A DNA stretch of 64,000 bases from Salvator merianae (Eukaryota > Chordata > Lepidosauria > Squamata > Teiidae), in assembly GCA_003586115.2 (NCBI GenBank), contig QVOM02000053.1, positions 2,904,392-2,968,391 of the forward strand. Direction: 5' to 3'. This document shows positions 41,266 through 62,842 of the stretch, piece by piece (position 1 is the stretch's first letter; every line of letters starts with the position of its first letter). Both the position numbers and the translations under genes were made by a program. The notes under the pieces are model-generated. The model made no database searches. It was not told the origin of the DNA and saw only the letters and a list, made by a program, of their open reading frames with translations.

Positions 41266-42423
41266 TCAATCTTCTTCATTCTGCCGGCGGTATTTGAAAT
41301 ACACGACCATCATGACGACGCCCGTGAGAACGCAAGCGGAACCGAAGACGAGATAAGCGATGCCCAAGAAGAGGTTCTTGCCGCCCGTCCAGGAGAGCGT
41401 GCTGAAGATGACTTTCTTGGTGCCGTGGAAAGAGAGGACCGGATAGTTGTAGGTGATGTTGAGGTAGTAGGTGCCCTTCAACAGCCCGACCGAGAAATTC
41501 CCCTGGTGGACCCGGGAATAGAGCTTGCGGAAGGTGGGCAGGGCCGCGATGCGCATCCACACGATGAAGGCCTCGTTGACGAAGCCCGTGTTGTTGGGGT
41601 CGCCCCCGCTAAGGTTGTACACGGGGTAGGGCCAATTGGGGGGCTTGGCGGTGCCCTTGAAGGCCTCCGCCAGGCTCCCGTTGACGGGCTCCGGGTTGCG
41701 GAACTTCACGTTGGTGTCCGTCCACCAGGAGATGCCCCTCTTGTCCAGCTGCACCGCCTCCAGGGAGCCCCCGCGGACCCGGTAGAGCTCGAAGGAGTCG
41801 TTGAAGAGGCTGTTGGCGATGGAGCCGCAGGGCGCGATGGGCAGCCTGGCCCTGCCCACCGTCTGGTACTGGTACGGCTGGCACTCCGACGCCGGGTTCC
41901 AGAGGGCCCAGGTGTTGCCGCTGAGCTGCAGGTTGTCCCGGGAGACGCTGTAGCGCCGGTTGTTCTGGTAGTAACTGGAGAGCTGGTAGTAGAGGCAGAC
42001 GGGCGCCGGGAAGTCCTCGGTCAGGGCGAAGGAGAGCCCGCAGGTGCAGGGCGCGTGCAGGGGGCTGCTGCTGAGGTTGGCGCACCGCGAGCAGTTGTTG
42101 CCCGGCAGGCCCGTGTAGTCCAGCTCCAGCTCGCGGATCTCCTCGGAGGAGAAGTAGAGGCCGAGCCCCAGCGCCACGAAGGCCAGGCCCAGGCAGAAGA
42201 AGAGCGGCAGCACCGTGCCCGCCGACAGCAGCGGCTGCCAGGCCGGCAGGCGCTGCTGCGTGAACGCCGTGTTGTCCGGCCGGTTGGGAGCCGCCGCGCG
42301 CTCGCCGGCGCTCGGGGAGGAGGCGCCCGCCGCCGGCAGGCTGCCGGGGGGCAGGCGGCGGCCGCCGCCGCGGCGACGCCCCTGGCTGCCGCCGCTGCCC
42401 AAGTCGTACGAGCCCGACGCCAT
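41266..42423 (-). CDS. TMEM30B: TMEM30B (CDC50B), P4-ATPase flippase beta subunit
   Basis: CDC50 proteins pair with P4-ATPase phospholipid flippases, help them leave the ER and support lipid transport. This single-exon ORF encodes 385 aa. It has the family opening [17 protein letters not shown] (48-64), TM1 at about 68-90, a large lumenal domain and TM2 at about 353-376, ending in a short acidic tail. Family motifs include [52 protein letters not shown] and GGKN.FLGIAY. Paired cysteines and about eight N-x-S/T sites lie in the lumenal part. Being intronless fits TMEM30B rather than TMEM30A. The start is the ATG at 42423 (context CCCCATGG). The frame stays open further upstream but with no earlier ATG nearby. 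The N-terminus before the conserved block is about 35 residues longer than human TMEM30B as I recall it. Confidence 0.95.
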
Positions 42424-42900
42424 GGGGACGGGCGGCACGGTGGGCGCTTGGCCCTGCCGGCTCGCTTCTTACTCACCACCTGCGCCTGCCACTACCTGGC
42501 GGGGAGGGGTCGGTCGGCGGGAGGGGGCGCGCTCGCAGTAAGCAGCAGGTGAGCGCCAACTCTAGTCTAAGACACGCCCGGAAGGTGCGCCGCGGCGGCG
42601 CGCACGAGCGGGAGGGGGGCCACAGGAGGAGCCCCGCCCCGCCCTCTCTTCCCCATTCTGATCATCCCGTTGGCTCCTGGCCCTGCCCTGCCCACAGCCT
42701 ACCTGAGCCCAGGTGGGCGCCGCCCCGCGTCGAGGTGAACTGGCGGGCGGGCGGCACACTGCGGGAGCGGCGGTGGGCGGAGCCGGAGCTCAGGTGAAGG
42801 GCATGTCCCGGCCTCACCTGTCCTCTGTCGAAGCGCAGCGTCGTGGCGGCCTCGGGGCTCTGTTTTGTTCCCCACGCTGGGGTCTGCTGCGCCGTTCGCC
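41480..42900 (-). promoter_or_regulatory. TMEM30B: CpG island and promoter region of TMEM30B
   Basis: CpG-dense DNA covers the 5' half of TMEM30B and continues about 450 bases upstream of its ATG. A double GC-box-like tract (ccccgccccgccc, 42632-42643) and other G+C boxes lie in the upstream part, with no TATA box. This is typical of a broad housekeeping-type vertebrate promoter. Surrounding DNA is A+T-rich, so the boundary is sharp. Confidence 0.7.
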
Positions 42901-52857: not shown

Positions 52858-55800
52858 ATGTTGAGTCCGATGCCTATCTTTTCCCAGAAAGATCTGGAGA
52901 GTATTTCCCTAATTCGAACCGGATCTGGCTTCGCACTCAAAGCCTTCCATGCATCTCACAATATAGATGTCTCTGTGAAGTTATTGACTTCCCAGAATGT
53001 GCCAGAAAGGTTAGTTGGTTAATTGGTTGGTTGGTTAATTGGTTGGTTAGTTGGTTAATTGGTTGGTTAGTGGTTAATTAGTTGGTTGGTTGGTTTTTGA
53101 GTGAAGACAGTAACTTCCTCTGGTGAACATGAGATTATTACTATGGTGGGCAAGCAAAAACAAAATATAATTGTTGGTCAGAGGAAATCATGGGATTTTC
53201 TTTAGATCTCACAAATGCGTCTCAGTGCCACTGCCAGATGTCAGGATGCAATCCTGGGACAATCCCAAGCTTTTACCTCATCTGCCGGTTCTTTGTGGTC
53301 TTGTTCCTCTGTCAAAATACCCGGATGTTAGCAAGTGCCCACTCACTTCCCTTTGTTTTTCTCCCGCACTTGCCAGCATCCGGATATATTACAAGAGGAA
53401 CGATTACATGAAGATCCAGCAGGCGGAGGTAATTTTCCGTAATCCCACTATTGCGGATTTTCGATCGACAGGCTCAGGGGTGTATTGATATTGGAATTTT
53501 GGCAATGCTATTATAGTCACGGGAGAGCTGTGGTATCCCTATTCTGGGAAAATCTAGCTCTCAACGTGGATTTTCCCAGAACAGTGATATGGCTCACCTT
53601 TTTGGAATTTTGCTCGTGGGATCCTTCCTGAAGAAAATGGCCCCTGCACATGTGCAGGGCTGAAACTGGGACAAAAATGGACATGGCACATTTGTGTGGG
53701 ACCAGTGTGCACACACTTCCAGGGTTTTCATGCCACTGAAATACTCAGAAGTAGCTGCCTCACCAACCTGGGAGCAAGCATGTGGACAGGTTAGTGCCTG
53801 CACAAATCCTGCGATGTTGCCCTGACCATCATGCAGACGGTGTGGATCCCACCCAGGCATTCTGGTGTTTAGAATCAGCAGGCCTGGCTGTTCCAGACCC
53901 AGCGATGCCAAACCCAGGCCGTTCTGTGCAGAAAGGCCCGTGGAAGAGGAACCATCTGTTACTGTTAAAAAGAAGAAAGAGAAAGTCATTTCATGATGCT
54001 TCAAGGTCTTGCGCTGCTCCGTATGAAGACATCTAGGAAGTAACCTTTACCCTCATCTCCAGCAGGCTTTCACTGTGTATTGGGCAAGGGAGGCAGATTC
54101 ACGGTCACATGGGAAATCAGAAATGGACAAGTTCCTTTTTTAGACTACAATGGCTAGTGGTAAAGAAAGGGACTTTTCCAAAATCTGTGGAAATAACATT
54201 TCTGCTGAAAAAAAGATATTGGCCAGAAACCCATAATCCAAGAAGTGAACTTAAAACAGTGGGCATTTTGCACTGTTGTGACAGGACAGAGACCCAGAGG
54301 CCCTGTCAACAGTAATCGCCCCGTTCCTGCGGGTCCTGAACATCCACCCCTAAAGCGATGGACCGCTGCTGAGGAGAACCCCTAAGCTGTGAGCCTGTTC
54401 TTTCAAAGGGAGTTCCACCTCATCTGGAACAAGCTGAATCCCCAATTCCGCATCAGCAGTACCTCCATCTTGTCTGGGTTCAGGTTCACCTTATTCACCT
54501 CATCCAGCCTCCAGCACCTGGTTCGGGAAACCCACCACCTCCCTAGCATCGGATGGTATCGAGAGGCAGCAGAGGTTTCACGCAGATGTTAAACCACAAA
54601 TGGAGAAAAATGAGGCAACTGGTTCTTCCTTTTCTCTGCAGCACGCAGGACAAGTCACAAAGCATTCCGCTCACTATAGCTCAGGTGAAATTTGTTCAGA
54701 ATCATCTCTTTGACCACCGTTGGAAGTTTAAGAACCTGCCTTGTTCCAAACAGCCTAGCACAAAATTAAACTGCAGGATTTAATTTCTCTTCTTTTTTTT
54801 GAGAGAAATGTGTAGCAACAAATTTGTAGCATCTCTCCCCCCCCCCCATCATTGGCTGAAATTGTAGTAGCAGAAACACTTTTAGTTCTGAATGTGTTTG
54901 CAGAGATTTCAAGGCACTTCTTCAAGAGGTTTCCGGCGTCAGACGCTTGCAGAGTGATAAGCTTCTGCCCCCACTTGGCATCTGCAAATTCAAGGGACTC
55001 CTCGGGGTCGGCACCCAATGGATGCATAACGGGTCCCTCAATTCACTCATACATGAGGTAGGTAACAGGCAGAGGAGTCCTTTGCCATAAACTTCTTCTT
55101 GTTTGAAAGTAAGGGCTTGTTTAAACTTAACCCTTAGTGAGTGAGCGGGCGTTCACTGGGTAAGTGCGTCCGCATGGCCCCTCTGCTACAGCGTTGGGGA
55201 ACATCTACAGACATTCCCAGATGCTACTAGTTGTGAACAGCTAAAATGCTGTCCACAGCTTGACCGGGAGCGGCTAGACTGCTCCCGGTCAGTAGTATTT
55301 GCACCTCCTTTCGGGTGTGAATGCTGTGAGTGGGCAGGCCGGCGTGGCTGTGACTGTGGAGTCAAGTGGGCATCCCGATCACCATGGCAATGTCTGGCTG
55401 AGGGCCAGATGTGGCTGCAGCCGCTATCATGGCGATCGGGCCTGCGTTCGCACGTCGGGTACCCGACGGCCCAGTACAGGGCTGAATTCTCTCCTTTTGC
55501 AGCACGACCTCTACCCGGAGCTGCCTTTCTGCCTGTGTGTCAGAATCCTGTCGGATGTGGCAGAAAGCCTGACATATCTGCACGGTCTGGAACCTCCTGT
55601 CCTTCACCACTGCCTAAAGCCTTCAAACGTGTTGCTAGACCTGGAATACAGAGCTAAGGTGAGCACCTTCAAGCGTCATCTGCTGCTGCCAAGACTGGAT
55701 TAGACCCATGGTTTATGAAGGTCCAGAGTGGCTAAACTGACAGACTGGAGGTCCCTGGGGATTCAGACAAGAAGTCTTTTCCAAATACTGGCAAAGACTG

Positions 55801-58800
55801 AACCTGGGACTATTTGCTTCTTTATTTATTTTTATGTATTTACATATTGTACAGATTGCTGGCTGGGGCCATTTTGGCCAGGTATCCACAGTATGCCACT
55901 TCTGGGTGCCTGGTGAAACGGCGTGGGCATGGTATGCCAGACCATGCCCTGTGTGCAGTCCACACACGGCCCACTTGCCCAGTATACCAGCTAGAATGCG
56001 GCATGGAGCGCTTGTGAGCTGTCCGCACTTTGAGTGGGTTACAGGACCATTTTTGTGCTGCAGCCCATCGCAACACCTTGGCTCGTGCAGACATCGTGTT
56101 CCGGGCAGTCACCTGGGTGGGTCTACCAAACCGGTACAGACACGGTCTGAGGGTATAATAAGCAAGCTACGAAGCTAGGGAATGATAAATTGCCTTGTCC
56201 TAATACCTGTCTAGAATTTATGACATTGTTACGATGAATCATTCCAGCCGACGGAACTCCAACTATTCAGATTGCCCAACCCAAGGTTGCCAGTTGGCTG
56301 CTAAGCAGTTTCTTAAGTATATGCTTATAGTTAGGTACAGAGAGTGTTTTCTTGTTCGATTGGCAGCATCTGCGAAGTGGCAAAGCCAGTTCGGACAACC
56401 TATCTGAGAATTCAGCTCTCGCATTTTTCTTTTTAGAGGGTTAATTAGATGGACTTTATCCATTTATATGAGAATTGTGGATTTCATGCCTATACCTTCG
56501 GGTATAGGGCGGGATAAAAATGCAAGTAAATAAATAAATAAATAAATAAAATAGCATAGTGCTATCCAATATTGGCTTACAGGATGTGTGTTGTGATCAT
56601 TTTGAGTTGTTGTGTCCTTTCTTGCAGAGAAATCAGATGTCCAAGACCATGCGGCGCAAGGAGATTGTTGAATTTGCTAATTCCTGTTTTTTGAACTCTA
56701 CTTCCCTCTTGTTAGATATCAGACTATGGTTTAGCCACTTATAGAAGACAGCAGCTAAGATCTCTTCTGCAGACTGGCAACAACAGAAACTCTTGGGATT
56801 TGCTCTGCCTTTCCCCTGAAATACTCCAAGGAAGTCCCTTCTCACAAGAAGGTGATGTTTACAGGTGAGGGGATTTGCCTGTTTCTTTGTTTATGGAATC
56901 AGGATTTTGTTGCTCGAGAAACATGGATCAGTCACTGGAGACTCTGCTGTCTGGGATGCATTCTCCCACAGGTTGAAACTTTTCAGGTCACTCAACACCA
57001 GTAGACATTTCAGTTCAACTGATGCCAATATTTGCATTTGGGAGTTCAGAGCTCCTCAAACTTAGGCCTCCAGATGTTGGGGAAATACAGCTTCCACCAG
57101 TCCTAGACAGCGTGGCCAAAGGCAATGGTTGATGGTTGTTGTAGGTTAAGAGCTTCCAGAAACCCAAGTTTGGGAACCCCTGTGCTAGATGATTAGTACT
57201 GTATTCCTCTAGTTAACAGAGGGTGTTTTCACACTTGCCACCTTAGAATGAGATAAGTATCCTGTTCTAAGGTGGAGCGGACCACGCAGCGTGGACACCA
57301 TCGGCACTGTGGAGACCTAGTCAGGAATACTAACAGGATAGCTAGCATTTGTATTACGAATGCTGGTATCCTGGCTCTGATCTTCACTATGACAGTGGCC
57401 GGGAAGCATCCAGCCACTGCCATGGATTGCGCAGGCACAATTGCACAATTGTGCAGGCACAGCTCTGCGTGCCATGTGGCTGTGCACTTTTGGGTGCGAA
57501 TGCACTTGACCAGGAGCAGCTGGAATCTGCACTTGGCTAGTGAGTGTCCCTGATGTGAAAAGGCCCAGTGTCTGCTGGGTTTTGCCGGTCATTTACTTGT
57601 AGACGACCAGGAGCAGCTGGAATCTGCACTTGGCTAGTGAGTGTCCCTGATGTGAAAAGGCCCAGTGTCTGCTGGGTTTTGCCGGTCATTTACTTGTAGA
57701 CGGTCCCAAGTAATGCTTGCGTTTTTCTCCCAATATTTGTTGCTAGCTTCGGGATGATGTGCTGGGAAACTATAAGCAGACAGAAACCACTGCAAGGTAG
57801 GCATTTGTCTGCCTCTCTTTGCCTTTTACCTCAGAACTGCTTTTTATAAAAAGTGTTCTTAACGCCGCCTCCCTTCTGACTTGGTCCTTCCCTAAATGCA
57901 ATAATGCTTGAAGCTTTTTCTCCTGGCTTGCGCTGAACGAATGCATTTCCAGCATCCCCAAACACGTGAGGGCTTATGCTGCCTTAGTAGCAGAAGCTGC
58001 AGTTTGCTCAGTGCCCATTTTCCTTCTGTTGAACTCTCAGTGGGTTTGTGGGTAGCTGTGGGTTTTGCACTGCTAGATTGCGGAGGGCACAGGTCTCTTC
58101 TCCAGGGAACACAAGAGAAGCCCTGCTGGATCGGACCACAACCCATCTAGTCCAGCATCCTGTGTCGGGCAAAGGCCAACTAATTGCTTCGAGGCCTTCC
58201 CAAGCAAAAGAAAACGGCAAAACCTTCACCAGTTCCTATCATGCGAAGGAGCCTTTGGAATATACAAATGCAGATCTGAGGGAATGCTAACAAGATATTC
58301 ATGATGGAGGAGGAAAGAGGAAGCTCGAACCAGCACACAGAAGCCTCCTTTGGTGGTTATCAGCGTCCTGACCTGTGGACGTCTAGGTTGCGCTCATGAG
58401 CCCCAAGCGATGGGGCGACCTACTTGGCTTGTCCCAGCTTTCTCTCTCAAAGAGCAGGTGTGACTGCGGGAGGCCTGAGCCTCTTCATGGTCACGTGAAG
58501 GGAGGAGAGGCTTTCGTTTGATGCCTGACACGCGGAGAGGGCTTATCACTTTCTTACTCAGAGGGCTGGCAGGTGCTGAGTCTCGCTCTGACACCTCATC
58601 TTTTCCCCTGCATTGCTCCGGGTGGCGTGGAATCATGCAAAGAGGGCATAAGGCATCTTCTGCTATCCTCCAGGGGTGTTATTTATAGCTGAATAGGGAT
58701 TTCACCTAGACTCCTCTCGGTTCCCTTTTTTAAAAAGTAACTTTAGCTCTTATGCATTAGAACGCGTGACATATCATCACATCTCCTGTATACATCTTGT

Positions 58801-61800
58801 GAGAACTCCTCTTGCATACGTTATAACCAGTGGTTATAAACCACTGATGAAACACATTTTTGTCGCAGAATGCAACAAATGCAATTCTTTATTGCAATTC
58901 AGAATGCAATAAAGAACCGGAACGTTTGGAGTCAACGTGGAGATTATGCACCACTTCTTTTTGTAAACAGTTGCAACAGGTTATTGGCCAGTCTTTGTCA
59001 AGCTGGCGCCATTCAATTGGAGAACTCCATTTCTGTTGATACATAAGGAATGCCTCAATGGATTGGACCTCTGGGCCACTGACTCCAACAGTCAGCTCTT
59101 GCAATGGCCAAGCAGCAGGATCTGAGCATACAGCTTGCTCTTCTTTCAGACTCCCAGTAGCTGGCCTCCAATTATCAGAGGTGTTCTCACTGCCATTATT
59201 CCCAGACAGCACAAGCTGGGACGGGCACTATTTTGGGGGGGAAATTAGTAATATAGTAGTGGGATCGTCCAGGAACAGCTGTCCTGTAAGCATAAAGAGA
59301 ACAGTGTGTCATCTCTGAGTCTGAGTCCAATTTTCCTTGTTGCTTTCTGTATGACTCAGTTCACAATTGGCTAGATAACGCACCTGTGATCAGAGAGGCC
59401 AATTTTCGTGTGGCTTTGAATTCCACAGGAGTCATAAGAGGATCTCGTAAGTTCTACCACTTGTGACTCTGATGCCTTTTTTTCGCCGCCTTGCCCTCTA
59501 TCCCACAAGCCAGCTCCACCAGCAGTGGCATCACTCTCCATTGCAGGGTTTTGCTAACAATCAAGGACTGGGTACCCAGACGCGTAAAATACCTGCAGCT
59601 CTCAGTAGGTTTATGCTGCCCTCTTGTGGCTTTGAGTTTTCTTTGTCACCTACAGAACTACGTACTACGACCCTTGTTACAGCATCCGTAAAGAAATACT
59701 TTCTTTTCCTCTTGCAGGCAAGAAAACTTTCCTTGAAGCAGTGTCAGGAATTTGCAGTGGTGTACGCCCAGGGATTGAGCCAGAATTTATCCCAAACTGC
59801 CTGCCGCATCGCAACAAGTTTCTACGGCTTCTCCTTCTCTGTTGGCACCAAGACCCCTGTCACAGGCCACGGGCTACAGGTATGGCATGCTAGTCCCTCA
59901 CACATCTGGCATAATATAAATGTGGGCTAACCCACGTAAACACCACGGTCAGTGAGGGTGATGATGATGGGCTGCTTGGAAGAGCCTTTCACACACCTTT
60001 CGCTTACATTCCACAGACTTGTGGCACCCTGGTTTTGCTTGGAGGTGTCTTACTTGAGTGGTTTGTAAACACAGAGATGAAGGGAACCCCATGGTGGACG
60101 TCTGTGCATACCTGGGCATGTATGGGAGCCTTCACAGAAAACATAAGCAGGAGCTATGCAAGCAAAGGTTTCATGCTGCAGAGGGGCCTAGTGGTGCTTT
60201 TCTTAAAAAAACAAAACAAGAGCAACTAAGAGCAGCTGTCCTCTATCTAGGCAACCATCATTCACACCCTTAATCTTCTCACTTGACAGAATGCAGAACG
60301 TTTCTGAGGAATATTCTTGGCACATTTCAAAAGGAGATGATTCCTCACGCAATCTACAATTTGATTCATGCCAAGGTGAGTCACAAATGCCAAATGGTTT
60401 ACGCACCGCGTCACCATCTTCACACTTGGAAGTTGTTTATACCTTAGTCGTGCTGTACAAAGAGAAGTGAAAGGTCACAGAAAGACCACCCAGTGAGCCC
60501 CTGGGTTGTTGTTTTTTTTTGAGGAGGTGGCAGCGTGTGACACAACAGTTAGACCAGGTCTTGAGTACATCACAGGCATTTTCTGTTCTGACTTCCTCAG
60601 ATGGAGTGATCGGCTTTTAGGTGATGGTTCCATGATCTTTCCCCCAGCTACAATTCCACCAGGATGGAGATGCAGTGCAGAATGTACAACAGTGAACCAG
60701 AGTGAACTGGTTTATGCAACTGCAAATGAATTTTTAGGGGAAAGTCTCTTAGGAGGTGTGTTAGTAGACTGTATTATATTTAAGGCTAAGGAAGTAACGT
60801 AAGATTTATTAAGCAGTATTTGTGATGAGAACAAAGGAATAATAATAAATTCTGAAGAAATAATTTGCAGATGCACAGAAGCTTATCCGCAAAATTGTTG
60901 TCCACAGCTGTACCAGGAGCAGCTGGCTACACTCACATGCTGTATTCCCAGTCATTGTGGCAGCAGCCACACATATCCACGGCCACTATTATGGTGGGTG
61001 GTCAGCATCCGTGCTGCAAGTGCTGGAAACCCGTTTCCGAGCTGTTCCAGCTCTTGCAGTGTGGATAATTATCTCACGTTAAGGTAGAAAGTGTGAAAAG
61101 CGTGGGGCTACAGAATGCAGCGCTTGAAACAATGACAAGAGAACCCTGTTCACTGCAACATTGTCTTTGCAGATGCTGCTTATTATCCAACGGTGTGTGC
61201 TGTTTATAGCTGGGGAGGTTTTTTGTGTAACTCTGAGCTGAACAATGTTTATTCCTGTGCCTGTTCTTGCAATAACGTATCTGCTGAAAATGCACCGTGA
61301 ATTCTTCTAGGAGCATGGACAAGAGGATAATATACTGGCAGAGCAGCGGTTCATCTAGGACAGAAAATGTGGCGTGTTTAGTAAAACACTTTTCAGGGGA
61401 ACACATTCCAGAACCTGCTCTTTGCAGCCACAACTCTATCACAGTTTGGTGATGTTCTTTCTCCCTTTAGGACTGTGCTGTAGCTGCTGCCAAAGGACCA
61501 GTTTCCCATGTGCTTGAAACAGGCCTGCGCAACCTGGAGGTGAGCATCCAATGGAGGAAGGTGCTTTTTACTACAGGGGAATAATTGATCTCTCTAGCTA
61601 CTCTGCAGAAAGGATGCGGTGAGGATCAAGACGTGGAAAATGGAAAACAGTAATAGATGTTTGGAGGAAATTATTGGATGCAGCATTCCTTCTAACCCAT
61701 TGATAAGTGGCTTATTAACTCAACATTATTTTGTAACAATCTTTAAACAAGGGGACTTTCCACACTTACGGGTATTCTGATACAGTGTAAGGCCTAGACC

Positions 61801-62842
61801 CAACACAGAATAAAAGCTTAAACCACGGCAAGAAGATAAAATTAAGGCTGACTCCAGAAAGCAGCTGAAAAACATATTAACAAACAATATTCTGGAATAA
61901 AGTATCTCCAGAATAATTGTTTGTTGACTCCTTGTTCACTGTTGAGTTTCTGGGTATCTCAATTTAAGTCCTATTTAAAAAAAGGACTGGTCTTTCCCTG
62001 GTCTTTCAGAAGACCCAGGCTGGAGACCATATGCTGAATCCAAGGCACACTGCAAAAAAACCCTGTATTCGATGTTCTCCAAACCACTTTTCCTGACGCA
62101 TGGAATATCATCCCTGAAATTTGAGACAGCTTTGAATTTCATGCACAAATGTGTGGTCATCACCCCAAAACCCTGAATCTTTCTGGTTGCTTATATAGCA
62201 TGTGGAAATACCCTTAAACCAAAAGCAGACGGTTGTTCAGATCAATGCATGTGAAGCTTCCATGTTCTTTTATGATAAAGAGATATTGGGAGGAAAGGGG
62301 CAGAAAGTCCTAATTTTCTACCACAGAACCCAAGAACACAATCTGATAAATGCAAGAAACTAACCATTATGGCTCCAGTCATTAATCTTTCCAGTTGGCC
62401 AAAGTCTAACATGTTTTTAACATCTTCTCGGATGTGGTCCAATACTGTAAGCAGAGAAACACATTTTCTTGTCTTGTAAGCAGGCAATTCACCTGATTAA
62501 AAAGATCTGCTCTTTCCACATACGGACAAAAAATTGTGTTAAGATCAGTAACAAATTTAAGCCAGAATTTATTAGAACAGAATTGCTGGTGCAGGAGGAG
62601 GGATTATTAGGAGAATTTCATCAACCTTTTCCCAAATGTTCTTGTTTTTGTTGCAGGCCGCTTGTCCCCAGAACAACAACAGGCCCAATAAGGAAATTAC
62701 GCTCACAGCACAAAGTTTTCCAAGTAGTCGCCCTGAGAGAGATCCAGGAAGACCAAAAACAGACACAAAGCAGATGGCCCTTGCGAACGATACTCTTCCT
62801 AAAACGCCATTAGGAAAAGGTAGCATTTTTTTTCATCCTTAA
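52858..62842 (+). CDS. RIPK2-like pseudokinase (receptor-interacting kinase family), nine coding exons
   Basis: RIPK2 relays NOD1/NOD2 signals to NF-kB; this is a divergent relative. Coding exons: 52858-53009, 54904-55057, 55503-55658, 56716-56864, 57747-57796, 59718-59879, 60290-60375, 61471-61539, 62657-62842. All have AG/GT borders and joining phases. The sum is 1164 nt, 387 aa. Family matches in order: VSVK (Lys41), alphaC Glu59, PPLGIC, MHNGSLN.L.H (91-101), LHHCLKPSNVLLD (136-148), DYG (157-159), SPE, DVYSFGMMCWE.ISR..P, then the C-lobe (CW..DP..RP) and a RIPK2-style tail (TFLRNILGTFQKE). The HxD Asp is Cys139 and DFG is DYG, so catalysis is doubtful. Exon 9 reads to a TAA at 62840-62842. 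Alternatively a weak donor (GTAGCA) after 62819 leads to exons beyond, possibly a CARD. No disabling stops. RIPK2 is the closest relative I recognise; the exact orthologue is unknown to me. Confidence 0.85.
53013..53097 (+). repeat. (TTGG/TTAATTGG)n microsatellite at the donor of RIPK2-like coding exon 1
   Basis: Repeated ttggttgg and ttaattgg units begin three bases after the first coding exon, so they include part of the splice-donor context (gttagttggtt). Confidence 0.85.
54300..54545 (-). mobile_element. LINE reverse-transcriptase fragment (RIPK2-like intron 1)
   Basis: The minus-strand reading VNKVNLNPDKMEVLL fits the 'LNPDKTEvLL' block of L2/CR1-clade reverse transcriptases. Later codons include stops. 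Confidence 0.55.
56495..56552 (+). mobile_element. Retroposon 3' tail (RIPK2-like intron 3)
   Basis: ttcgggtatagggcgggata then aaaatgcaag followed by (taaa)n, matching the tail at 14630. Confidence 0.55.
57045..57185. repeat. Dispersed 'ctcctcaaacttaggcctccagatg' type repeat (RIPK2-like intron 4)
   Basis: agagctcctcaaacttaggc, then ctccagatgttgggg and, inverted at the right end, cccaagtttgggaacccctg. Likely hAT-derived. Confidence 0.45.
57225..57562. mobile_element. Element with ttttcacactt..cttagaatgagataa end (RIPK2-like intron 4)
   Basis: The left end ttttcacacttgccacctta, then gaatgagataa, is matched in inverse by a segment ending near 61099 in another intron, so both belong to one family. 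The right end here is probably gtgaaaaggccc. It is followed by, and partly included in, a 97-base tandem duplication. Confidence 0.5.
57508..57701 (+). repeat. Perfect tandem duplication, 2 x 97 bp (RIPK2-like intron 4)
   Basis: 57508-57604 and 57605-57701 are identical by eye, beginning gaccaggagcagctgg and ending acttgtagac. It lies about 45 bases before the small exon at 57747. Identity implies a recent event or an assembly artefact. Confidence 0.9.
58105..58215 (+). mobile_element. Dispersed 'catctagtccagcatcctgt' repeat (RIPK2-like intron 5)
   Basis: gggaacacaagagaagccct, then gctggatcggaccacaaccc and the shared catctagtccagcatcctgt. Confidence 0.6.
61061..61099. mobile_element. Terminal fragment of the same family as the element at 57225
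   Basis: gataattatctcacgttaag then gtagaaagtgtgaaaa is the reverse complement of the 57225 end with few changes. The other boundary is unclear. Confidence 0.45.

Follow-up and report, generated by a model that had tools for sequence, protein, structure and literature searches.

Signaling through NOD2 by human RIPK2 has been reported not to need its kinase activity, whereas the surface that binds XIAP is needed (PMC6120666, PMC10485824); the kinase-site variants D146N and K47R restore NOD2 signaling, but R41L and R36L/R41L do not do so fully (PMC6120666). A second RIPK2 paralogue was named RIPK2B in eLife in 2025 and described as lost in therians (PMC12119088), and two RIPK2 genes had been listed for anole and zebrafish in 2022 (PMC9573974). 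Here we analyze a gene in a stretch of 64,000 nucleotides from the tegu Salvator merianae (contig QVOM02000053.1, forward strand; hereafter the window), which is almost certainly orthologous to RIPK2B, a paralogue standing as sister to RIPK2. Its product, like those of its compared orthologues from sharks to birds and echidna, has no aspartate in the HxD motif of the catalytic loop, and most of the residues corresponding to the XIAP contacts of RIPK2 are changed in the same group.

An earlier note on this DNA, made from the window alone, had described a RIPK2-like gene of nine exons joined in phase. All nine exons lie where the note had placed them (Table 1), with GT donors at nine of nine exons, AG acceptors at exons 2–9, and an in-phase product of 380 residues. 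The start of the proposed span holds, whereas its end at 62842 does not, exon 9 stopping at 62819 and two further exons lying beyond the window. Reading the same contig past the window and aligning orthologues gave a complete gene of 11 coding exons, encoding 508 residues with a C-terminal CARD. Immediately 5′ of coding exon 1 stands the splice-acceptor-like CTTTCAG, which makes a 5′ untranslated exon further upstream likely. The pocket lysine, the αC glutamate, the lysine and asparagine of the catalytic loop, and the aspartate of the DFG motif are all present, and the loop LHHCLKPSN with a TGC codon and the motif DYG read exactly as had been described. Kinase families of Pfam are matched alongside the CARD, which gave a match above the cut-off (C1583:2971357-2971572, 29.8 bits) and has RIPK2 CARDs as its closest solved structures. 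Among solved structures, the nine-exon product matches RIPK2 best (169 bits; RIPK3 113, RIPK4 109, RIPK1 88), bearing out the proposed likeness to RIPK2. The orthologue from Elgaria is 71% identical across the whole nine-exon query (E value 2e-172) and identical at 345 of 498 aligned residues of the full-length protein, a similarity far beyond chance. A model of this Elgaria orthologue, which was folded in place of the tegu protein, has a confident kinase domain and CARD joined by a low-confidence linker (residues 312-448; mean predicted local distance difference test score, pLDDT, 74.3), and is closest to RIPK2 kinase structures (template modeling score, TM-score, on target about 0.88).

Proteins for comparison were taken from searches of 5.8 billion proteins (the best 120 of 550, 120 of 604, and 120 of 1852 matches). 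The RIPK2B set comprises 151 protein clusters (P0001-P0108 and P0121-P0163), 147 with residue 146 and 140 with an alignable CARD; the RIPK2 set comprises 120 rows (P0224-P0343), mostly of birds, obtained with search settings that favored longer proteins. Excluded were P0109-P0120, which are RIPK3 apart from P0113, a protein with several stretches of kinase sequence, as well as P0164-P0223, made up of lamprey RIPK2, RIPK3, P0164, and distant kinases. Of the RIPK2B clusters, 27 of 151 entered, together with the tegu protein, a tree built on 51 rows over 521 columns, and the remainder were assigned by search rank and motif. Because the RIPK2B rows are weighted toward birds and include partial models and isoforms (e.g., P0091/P0092 and P0121/P0122), row counts do not represent independent events.

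At position 146 (human RIPK2 numbering), aspartate is found in none of the 147 alignable RIPK2B rows, as against 120 of 120 RIPK2 rows, among which are 16 from fish of all kinds. The residues in its place are Ser (83), Ala (40), Asn (8), Arg, His, and Thr (4 each), Gly (3), and Ile (1). An orthologue carrying HxD, which the earlier note had named as an outcome speaking against it, was therefore not encountered among these rows, and for the same reason we reject the idea that the aspartate is missing through a sequence error. The cysteine that the note had singled out is private to the tegu, being seen in no other row (other squamates have Ser, Asn, His, or Arg); the tyrosine of DYG is the commonest state of RIPK2B (97 of 149 aligned rows). 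On the tree, the change from aspartate to another residue takes one step, the state having been entered by group label in the parsimony and topology run and the residues read separately from the aligned rows; by parsimony, the aspartate would have been lost once in the RIPK2B lineage, before the living jawed vertebrates diverged.

Around the missing residue, the nucleotide pocket is largely retained in RIPK2B: K47 in 133 of 139 rows, K148 in 143/147, N151 in 145/147, and D164 in 148/148. At the αC position, 94 of 139 rows carry Asp and 28 carry Glu, as against Glu in 120 of 120 RIPK2 rows, and the RIPK2 phosphorylation site S176 is present in only 3 of 147. RIPK2B thus joins a kinase fold, modeled on the Elgaria orthologue, to the lack of one catalytic motif residue, the combination by which pseudokinases are recognized; it appears to have given up the catalytic base while holding most of the pocket and, judging from these residues, is very probably non-catalytic. 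Amia and teleosts account for 38 of the rows P0124-P0163. Of the 37 that align at the gatekeeper (human T95), 23 carry Trp there and 8 carry Tyr; the phenylalanine of DFG is replaced by Trp in 33 of 38 (DWG), so that their pockets, unlike those of tetrapods, may be closed to nucleotide.

The tegu genome carries a separate RIPK2 gene on contig C846, with the loop HHDLKTQN and an intact DFG, whose kinase and CARD parts are identical to the RIPK2 of Salvator merianae (P0224) at 437 of 437 aligned residues. Exons 2–7 of the two genes agree in phase and length, except for exon 4 (158 nucleotides in RIPK2, 149 in RIPK2B). In the maximum-likelihood tree, 28 RIPK2B rows form one clade (support 100/100) and 18 RIPK2 rows another (100/99), and cartilaginous fish, ray-finned fish, and tetrapods are present inside both; within the RIPK2B clade, there are three subgroups, one of cartilaginous fish (100/98), one of ray-finned fish (100/100), and one that unites lungfish and tetrapods (96/90). 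The statement that none of the human RIP kinases is this protein agrees with this placement. RIPK3, whose four rows form a clade of their own, is rejected as the identity of the gene, which has a CARD (a RHIM was not searched for). The lamprey RIPK2 row, which has the aspartate, falls with RIPK2 (99/91). The alternative topology, joining RIPK2 and RIPK2B with lamprey outside, is barely rejected (approximately unbiased test, p-AU 0.039); given a long branch, we do not claim that the duplication preceded lampreys.

The two genes also have paired neighbors. Upstream of RIPK2B exon 1, at a distance of about 57 kb, lies an OSGIN1-like gene (C1583:2895397-2899793), and the sole other OSGIN-like place in the genome (C846:38176475-38185539) lies about 76 kb from the CARD exon of RIPK2; the query was an OSGIN1 sequence, and the second gene is taken as OSGIN2 on its lower identity (49-66% vs. 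55-80%). A review of 2023 likewise describes OSGIN1 beside a RIPK2 paralogue in chicken and zebra finch (PMC10492769). The paired OSGIN neighbors point to a block duplication, which we infer to have been among the genome duplications early in vertebrate history. Among the matches listed by the first search, CARD-bearing relatives, mostly named 'RIPK2-like', come from squamates, turtles, alligator, birds, tuatara, echidna, salamanders, a frog, and lungfish. When the lungfish protein served as the query, the matches listed extended to sharks, a chimaera, Amia, and teleosts. At least nine genera (Callorhinchus, Pristiophorus, Chanos, Megalops, Elgaria, Tiliqua, Euleptes, Pelodiscus, and Vidua) occur in both the RIPK2B and RIPK2 lists. 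Loss of the aspartate by RIPK2 itself in teleosts, which 'RIPK2'-named HxA proteins might suggest, is rejected because genera with an HxA row also have a distinct RIPK2 protein that carries the aspartate (P0340 and P0342); two RIPK2 genes are also reported in zebrafish (PMC9573974).

The RIPK2–XIAP BIR2 structure includes R36, R41, K209, E279, S282, and K285 of RIPK2 among the contacts (PMC10485824). In RIPK2B these residues are mostly gone: R36 is kept in 8 of 140 rows (107/119 in RIPK2), R41 in 2 of 139 (119/120), K209 in 25 of 149 (120/120), E279 in none of 148 (112/120), S282 in 19 of 148 (119/120), and K285 in none of 148 (114/120). The charge reversal at the last position (Glu in 120 rows, Asp in 26) is the most general change in the dock; the tegu protein has Asn, Glu, Arg, and Glu at positions 41, 209, 282, and 285, respectively. 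RIPK2B is thus more than a dead RIPK2, in that it has also lost the greater part of the surface through which kinase-dead RIPK2 continues to function; it is probably unable to recruit XIAP in the manner of RIPK2, and we think it likely to act independently of XIAP.

At RIPK2 CARD positions in or near the type I interface (interface residues, type I and others, from PMC6168553), the RIPK2B rows are nearly invariant (R444 in 139 of 140, N457 138, D461 139, Y474 137, R488 139, D492 138). Other positions, many of them of the type II and III interfaces, are remodeled: R483 is kept in 3 of 140 rows (Leu or Val in 135) and E472 in 35; Arg takes the place of C455 in 127, Ser or Thr that of M470 in 121, and Leu that of D495 in 108. 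Several residues specific to RIPK2B are themselves conserved (G454 in 138/140, R455 in 127/140, R464 in 129/140, C494 in 139/140, and L497 in 134/140). One general surface of the CARD is thus kept, while others are new, and partly conserved and not simply eroded.

From these residues we suggest, as somewhat the better-favored interpretation, that RIPK2B is a non-catalytic CARD adaptor that damps or retunes signaling of the NOD1–RIPK2 type independently of XIAP. In the proposed mechanism, it would work through CARD assembly and not through phosphotransfer: the CARD would use its near-invariant type I surface to enter or nucleate helical assemblies of CARDs, and the pseudokinase domain would retain its nucleotide pocket for shape. 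Because most of the XIAP-docking residues are changed, one of them charge-reversed nearly everywhere, such assemblies would build no XIAP–ubiquitin platform, and NOD1–RIPK2 type signaling would hence be damped or retuned; entry into type I contacts without this platform would make RIPK2B a brake or tuner of NOD1–RIPK2 assemblies. That it is a brake rather than an activator we put forward tentatively, as somewhat less than an even bet, and the scaffold or decoy of the NOD pathway imagined in the earlier note is a fair guess. Several observations weigh against this interpretation. The lack of the HxD aspartate is by itself no proof of zero activity. K209 is still present in 4 of 4 cartilaginous and 16 of 38 ray-finned RIPK2B rows, so that the XIAP dock was lost piecemeal and not all at once. 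E472 and R483, both reported to be among those critical for binding NOD1 (PMC13249360), are mostly gone from RIPK2B, and the conserved replacements at type II and III positions would suit a partner specific to RIPK2B no less well than a decoy for RIPK2. RIPK2B is also more variable than RIPK2 (mean consensus fraction 0.684 vs. 0.914, the RIPK2 sample being mostly birds and hence narrower), and no binding, ubiquitination, or signaling data for it turned up in the open-access literature searched.

An activating adaptor for a CARD receptor other than NOD1 or NOD2, using another ubiquitin ligase and having no direct role in RIPK2 signaling, fits nearly as well as a brake or tuner, although we regard it as rather unlikely. 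The conservation of the RIPK2B-specific CARD residues listed above would suit it, as would the many other CARD exons of the tegu genome (29 CARD matches in all) and the reported absence of NOD2 from birds and reptiles, including species that have kept RIPK2B (PMC12119088); however, no candidate receptor came up, and RIPK2B shares its type I residues with RIPK2, making cross-assembly with NOD1 or RIPK2 plausible. Residual kinase activity appears very improbable. The pocket and loop lysines, the asparagine, and the DFG aspartate are present in most rows, and some kinases without the HxD aspartate are reported to keep traces of activity, but residue 146 varies widely, with bulky basic residues included, and the αC glutamate and S176 are as rare as described above. 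A decaying relic or an assembly error is scarcely credible: the branch leading to the RIPK2B clade is long (1.19 changes per column) and the variation exceeds that of RIPK2, but the frame is open over 11 exons with GT-AG junctions, orthologues of all major jawed-vertebrate groups sampled have the same loss, CARD and pocket positions are near-invariant, and P0030, P0078, and P0081 (source 'lgn') are proteins of 547-561 residues on contigs of at most 2.4-2.7 kb, like spliced transcripts. The locus looks like the maintained pseudokinase that the note had seen in it and not like a decaying copy. That the gene might be the ordinary RIPK2 orthologue, merely diverged in the tegu, is rejected and has next to no probability; the nearest solved structure is indeed RIPK2, but RIPK2 itself lies on C846 with HHD and DFG, the split on the tree has full support, and the OSGIN neighbors differ, such orthology being another outcome that the note had named as speaking against it.

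We consider it an even question whether, more broadly, jawed vertebrates inherited a dedicated kinase-dead CARD adaptor that from then on has run or restrained a CARD receptor pathway, with no phosphotransfer and, in tetrapods at least, no docking of XIAP, that therians lost it, and that some 'chicken RIPK3' results may describe it. If this is true, RIPK2B was overlooked by mouse and human work because therians lack it. The loss in mammals supposed in the earlier note is reported for therians and does not extend to all mammals, RIPK2B being present in echidna (P0090).

The gene itself is already known, and what is apparently new is its clade-wide, ancient pseudokinase state together with the loss of the XIAP dock. 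The paper that named it is said to be by Fay and colleagues. The open-access literature searched, with subscription journals, figures, and supplements outside its scope, yielded no second paper using RIPK2B as a gene name beyond PMC12119088 and no statement that RIPK2B is without the catalytic aspartate; 'pseudokinase' occurs 0 times in the main text of PMC12119088, in which we came upon no mention of the missing aspartate or of XIAP contacts. Avian RIPK2 and RIPK3 labels need caution. A rail (Hypotaenidia) RIPK2B (P0087) is named RIPK3 and a Gallus one (P0151) 'RIPK2 isoform X2'; according to the 2023 review (PMC10492769), chicken gene 415708, labeled RIPK3, is a paralogue of RIPK2, and XM_040681043.1, from which a 'chicken RIPK3' antibody was raised in 2022 (PMC9412573), may be RIPK2B.

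Table 1. Coding exons of tegu RIPK2B and a neighboring reading frame, in window positions; the numbering of exons 10 and 11 continues past the end of the window.
Feature	Position	Strand	Content
Coding exon 1	52858..53009	+	ATG; glycine-rich loop TGSGF; pocket Lys AAG 52978-52980
Exon 2	54904..55057	+	αC Glu GAG 54926-54928; hinge region
Exon 3	55503..55658	+	Catalytic loop LHHCLKPSN; TGC 55611-55613 replaces HxD Asp codon
Exon 4	56716..56864	+	DYG 56722-56730; activation segment; 149 nucleotides (tegu RIPK2, 158)
Exon 5	57747..57796	+	
Exon 6	59718..59879	+	C-lobe
Exon 7	60290..60375	+	Kinase domain end
Exon 8	61471..61539	+	Linker
Exon 9	62657..62819	+	Linker; last exon within window
Exon 10	64810-64914		Linker, weakly conserved; placed by aligning orthologues
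Exon 11	66934-67214		CARD and TAG stop
TMEM30/CDC50-like single-exon reading frame (neighbor, not part of the gene)	41269..42468	-	PF03381, 6e-18 (first 200 residues scanned)

Beyond the gene, an exon of an amino-acid permease (PF13520, from a scan of the first 200 residues), which we take to be SLC7A6/SLC7A7-like, lies at 76432-77082 (+) in the continued numbering, about 9 kb past the RIPK2B stop, and a run of N (X in translations) at about 5.0-5.2 kb of the window is a possible assembly gap. Elsewhere in the tegu genome, 11 of the 29 CARD matches fall within about 320 kb (C196:3638895-3956362), a possible expansion of CARD genes. Among the excluded proteins, P0113 and P0164 (one from source 'lgn', the other from 'lgn' and 'ena') have the loops HKSLSSLS and HKNLNSFN and at least two kinase stretches each, and are perhaps pseudokinase–kinase tandems.

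The gene described here is the published RIPK2B, with its RIPK2-type kinase domain, linker, CARD, and OSGIN1 neighbor, and its database names of 'RIPK2-like', 'RIPK2', and 'RIPK3'. Among other relatives in RIP kinase pathways, RIPK3 has a RHIM and no CARD, and MLKL is a pseudokinase of different domain order, also without a CARD. Feline RIPK3 resembles RIPK2B as a RIP kinase without the HxD aspartate and is reported still to activate NF-κB (PMC12119088); however, its HRN is confined to three cat-family rows (P0115, P0117, and P0120, matching the mutated catalytic residue reported for felines), whereas the loss in RIPK2B is clade-wide and ancient. RIPK2 (RIP2, RICK, or CARDIAK) shares with RIPK2B the exon phases and lengths of exons 2–7 other than exon 4, the domain order, the pocket lysine, the DFG aspartate, and the type I residues of the CARD, and differs in having the catalytic aspartate throughout and the XIAP contacts, which RIPK2B has mostly lost. 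RIPK2B is a natural counterpart to human RIPK2: its aspartate and most of its XIAP surface are gone, whereas the gene, pocket, and CARD have been kept from sharks to birds, and comparison of the two paralogues could test which part of RIPK2 serves what, and what therians have lost.

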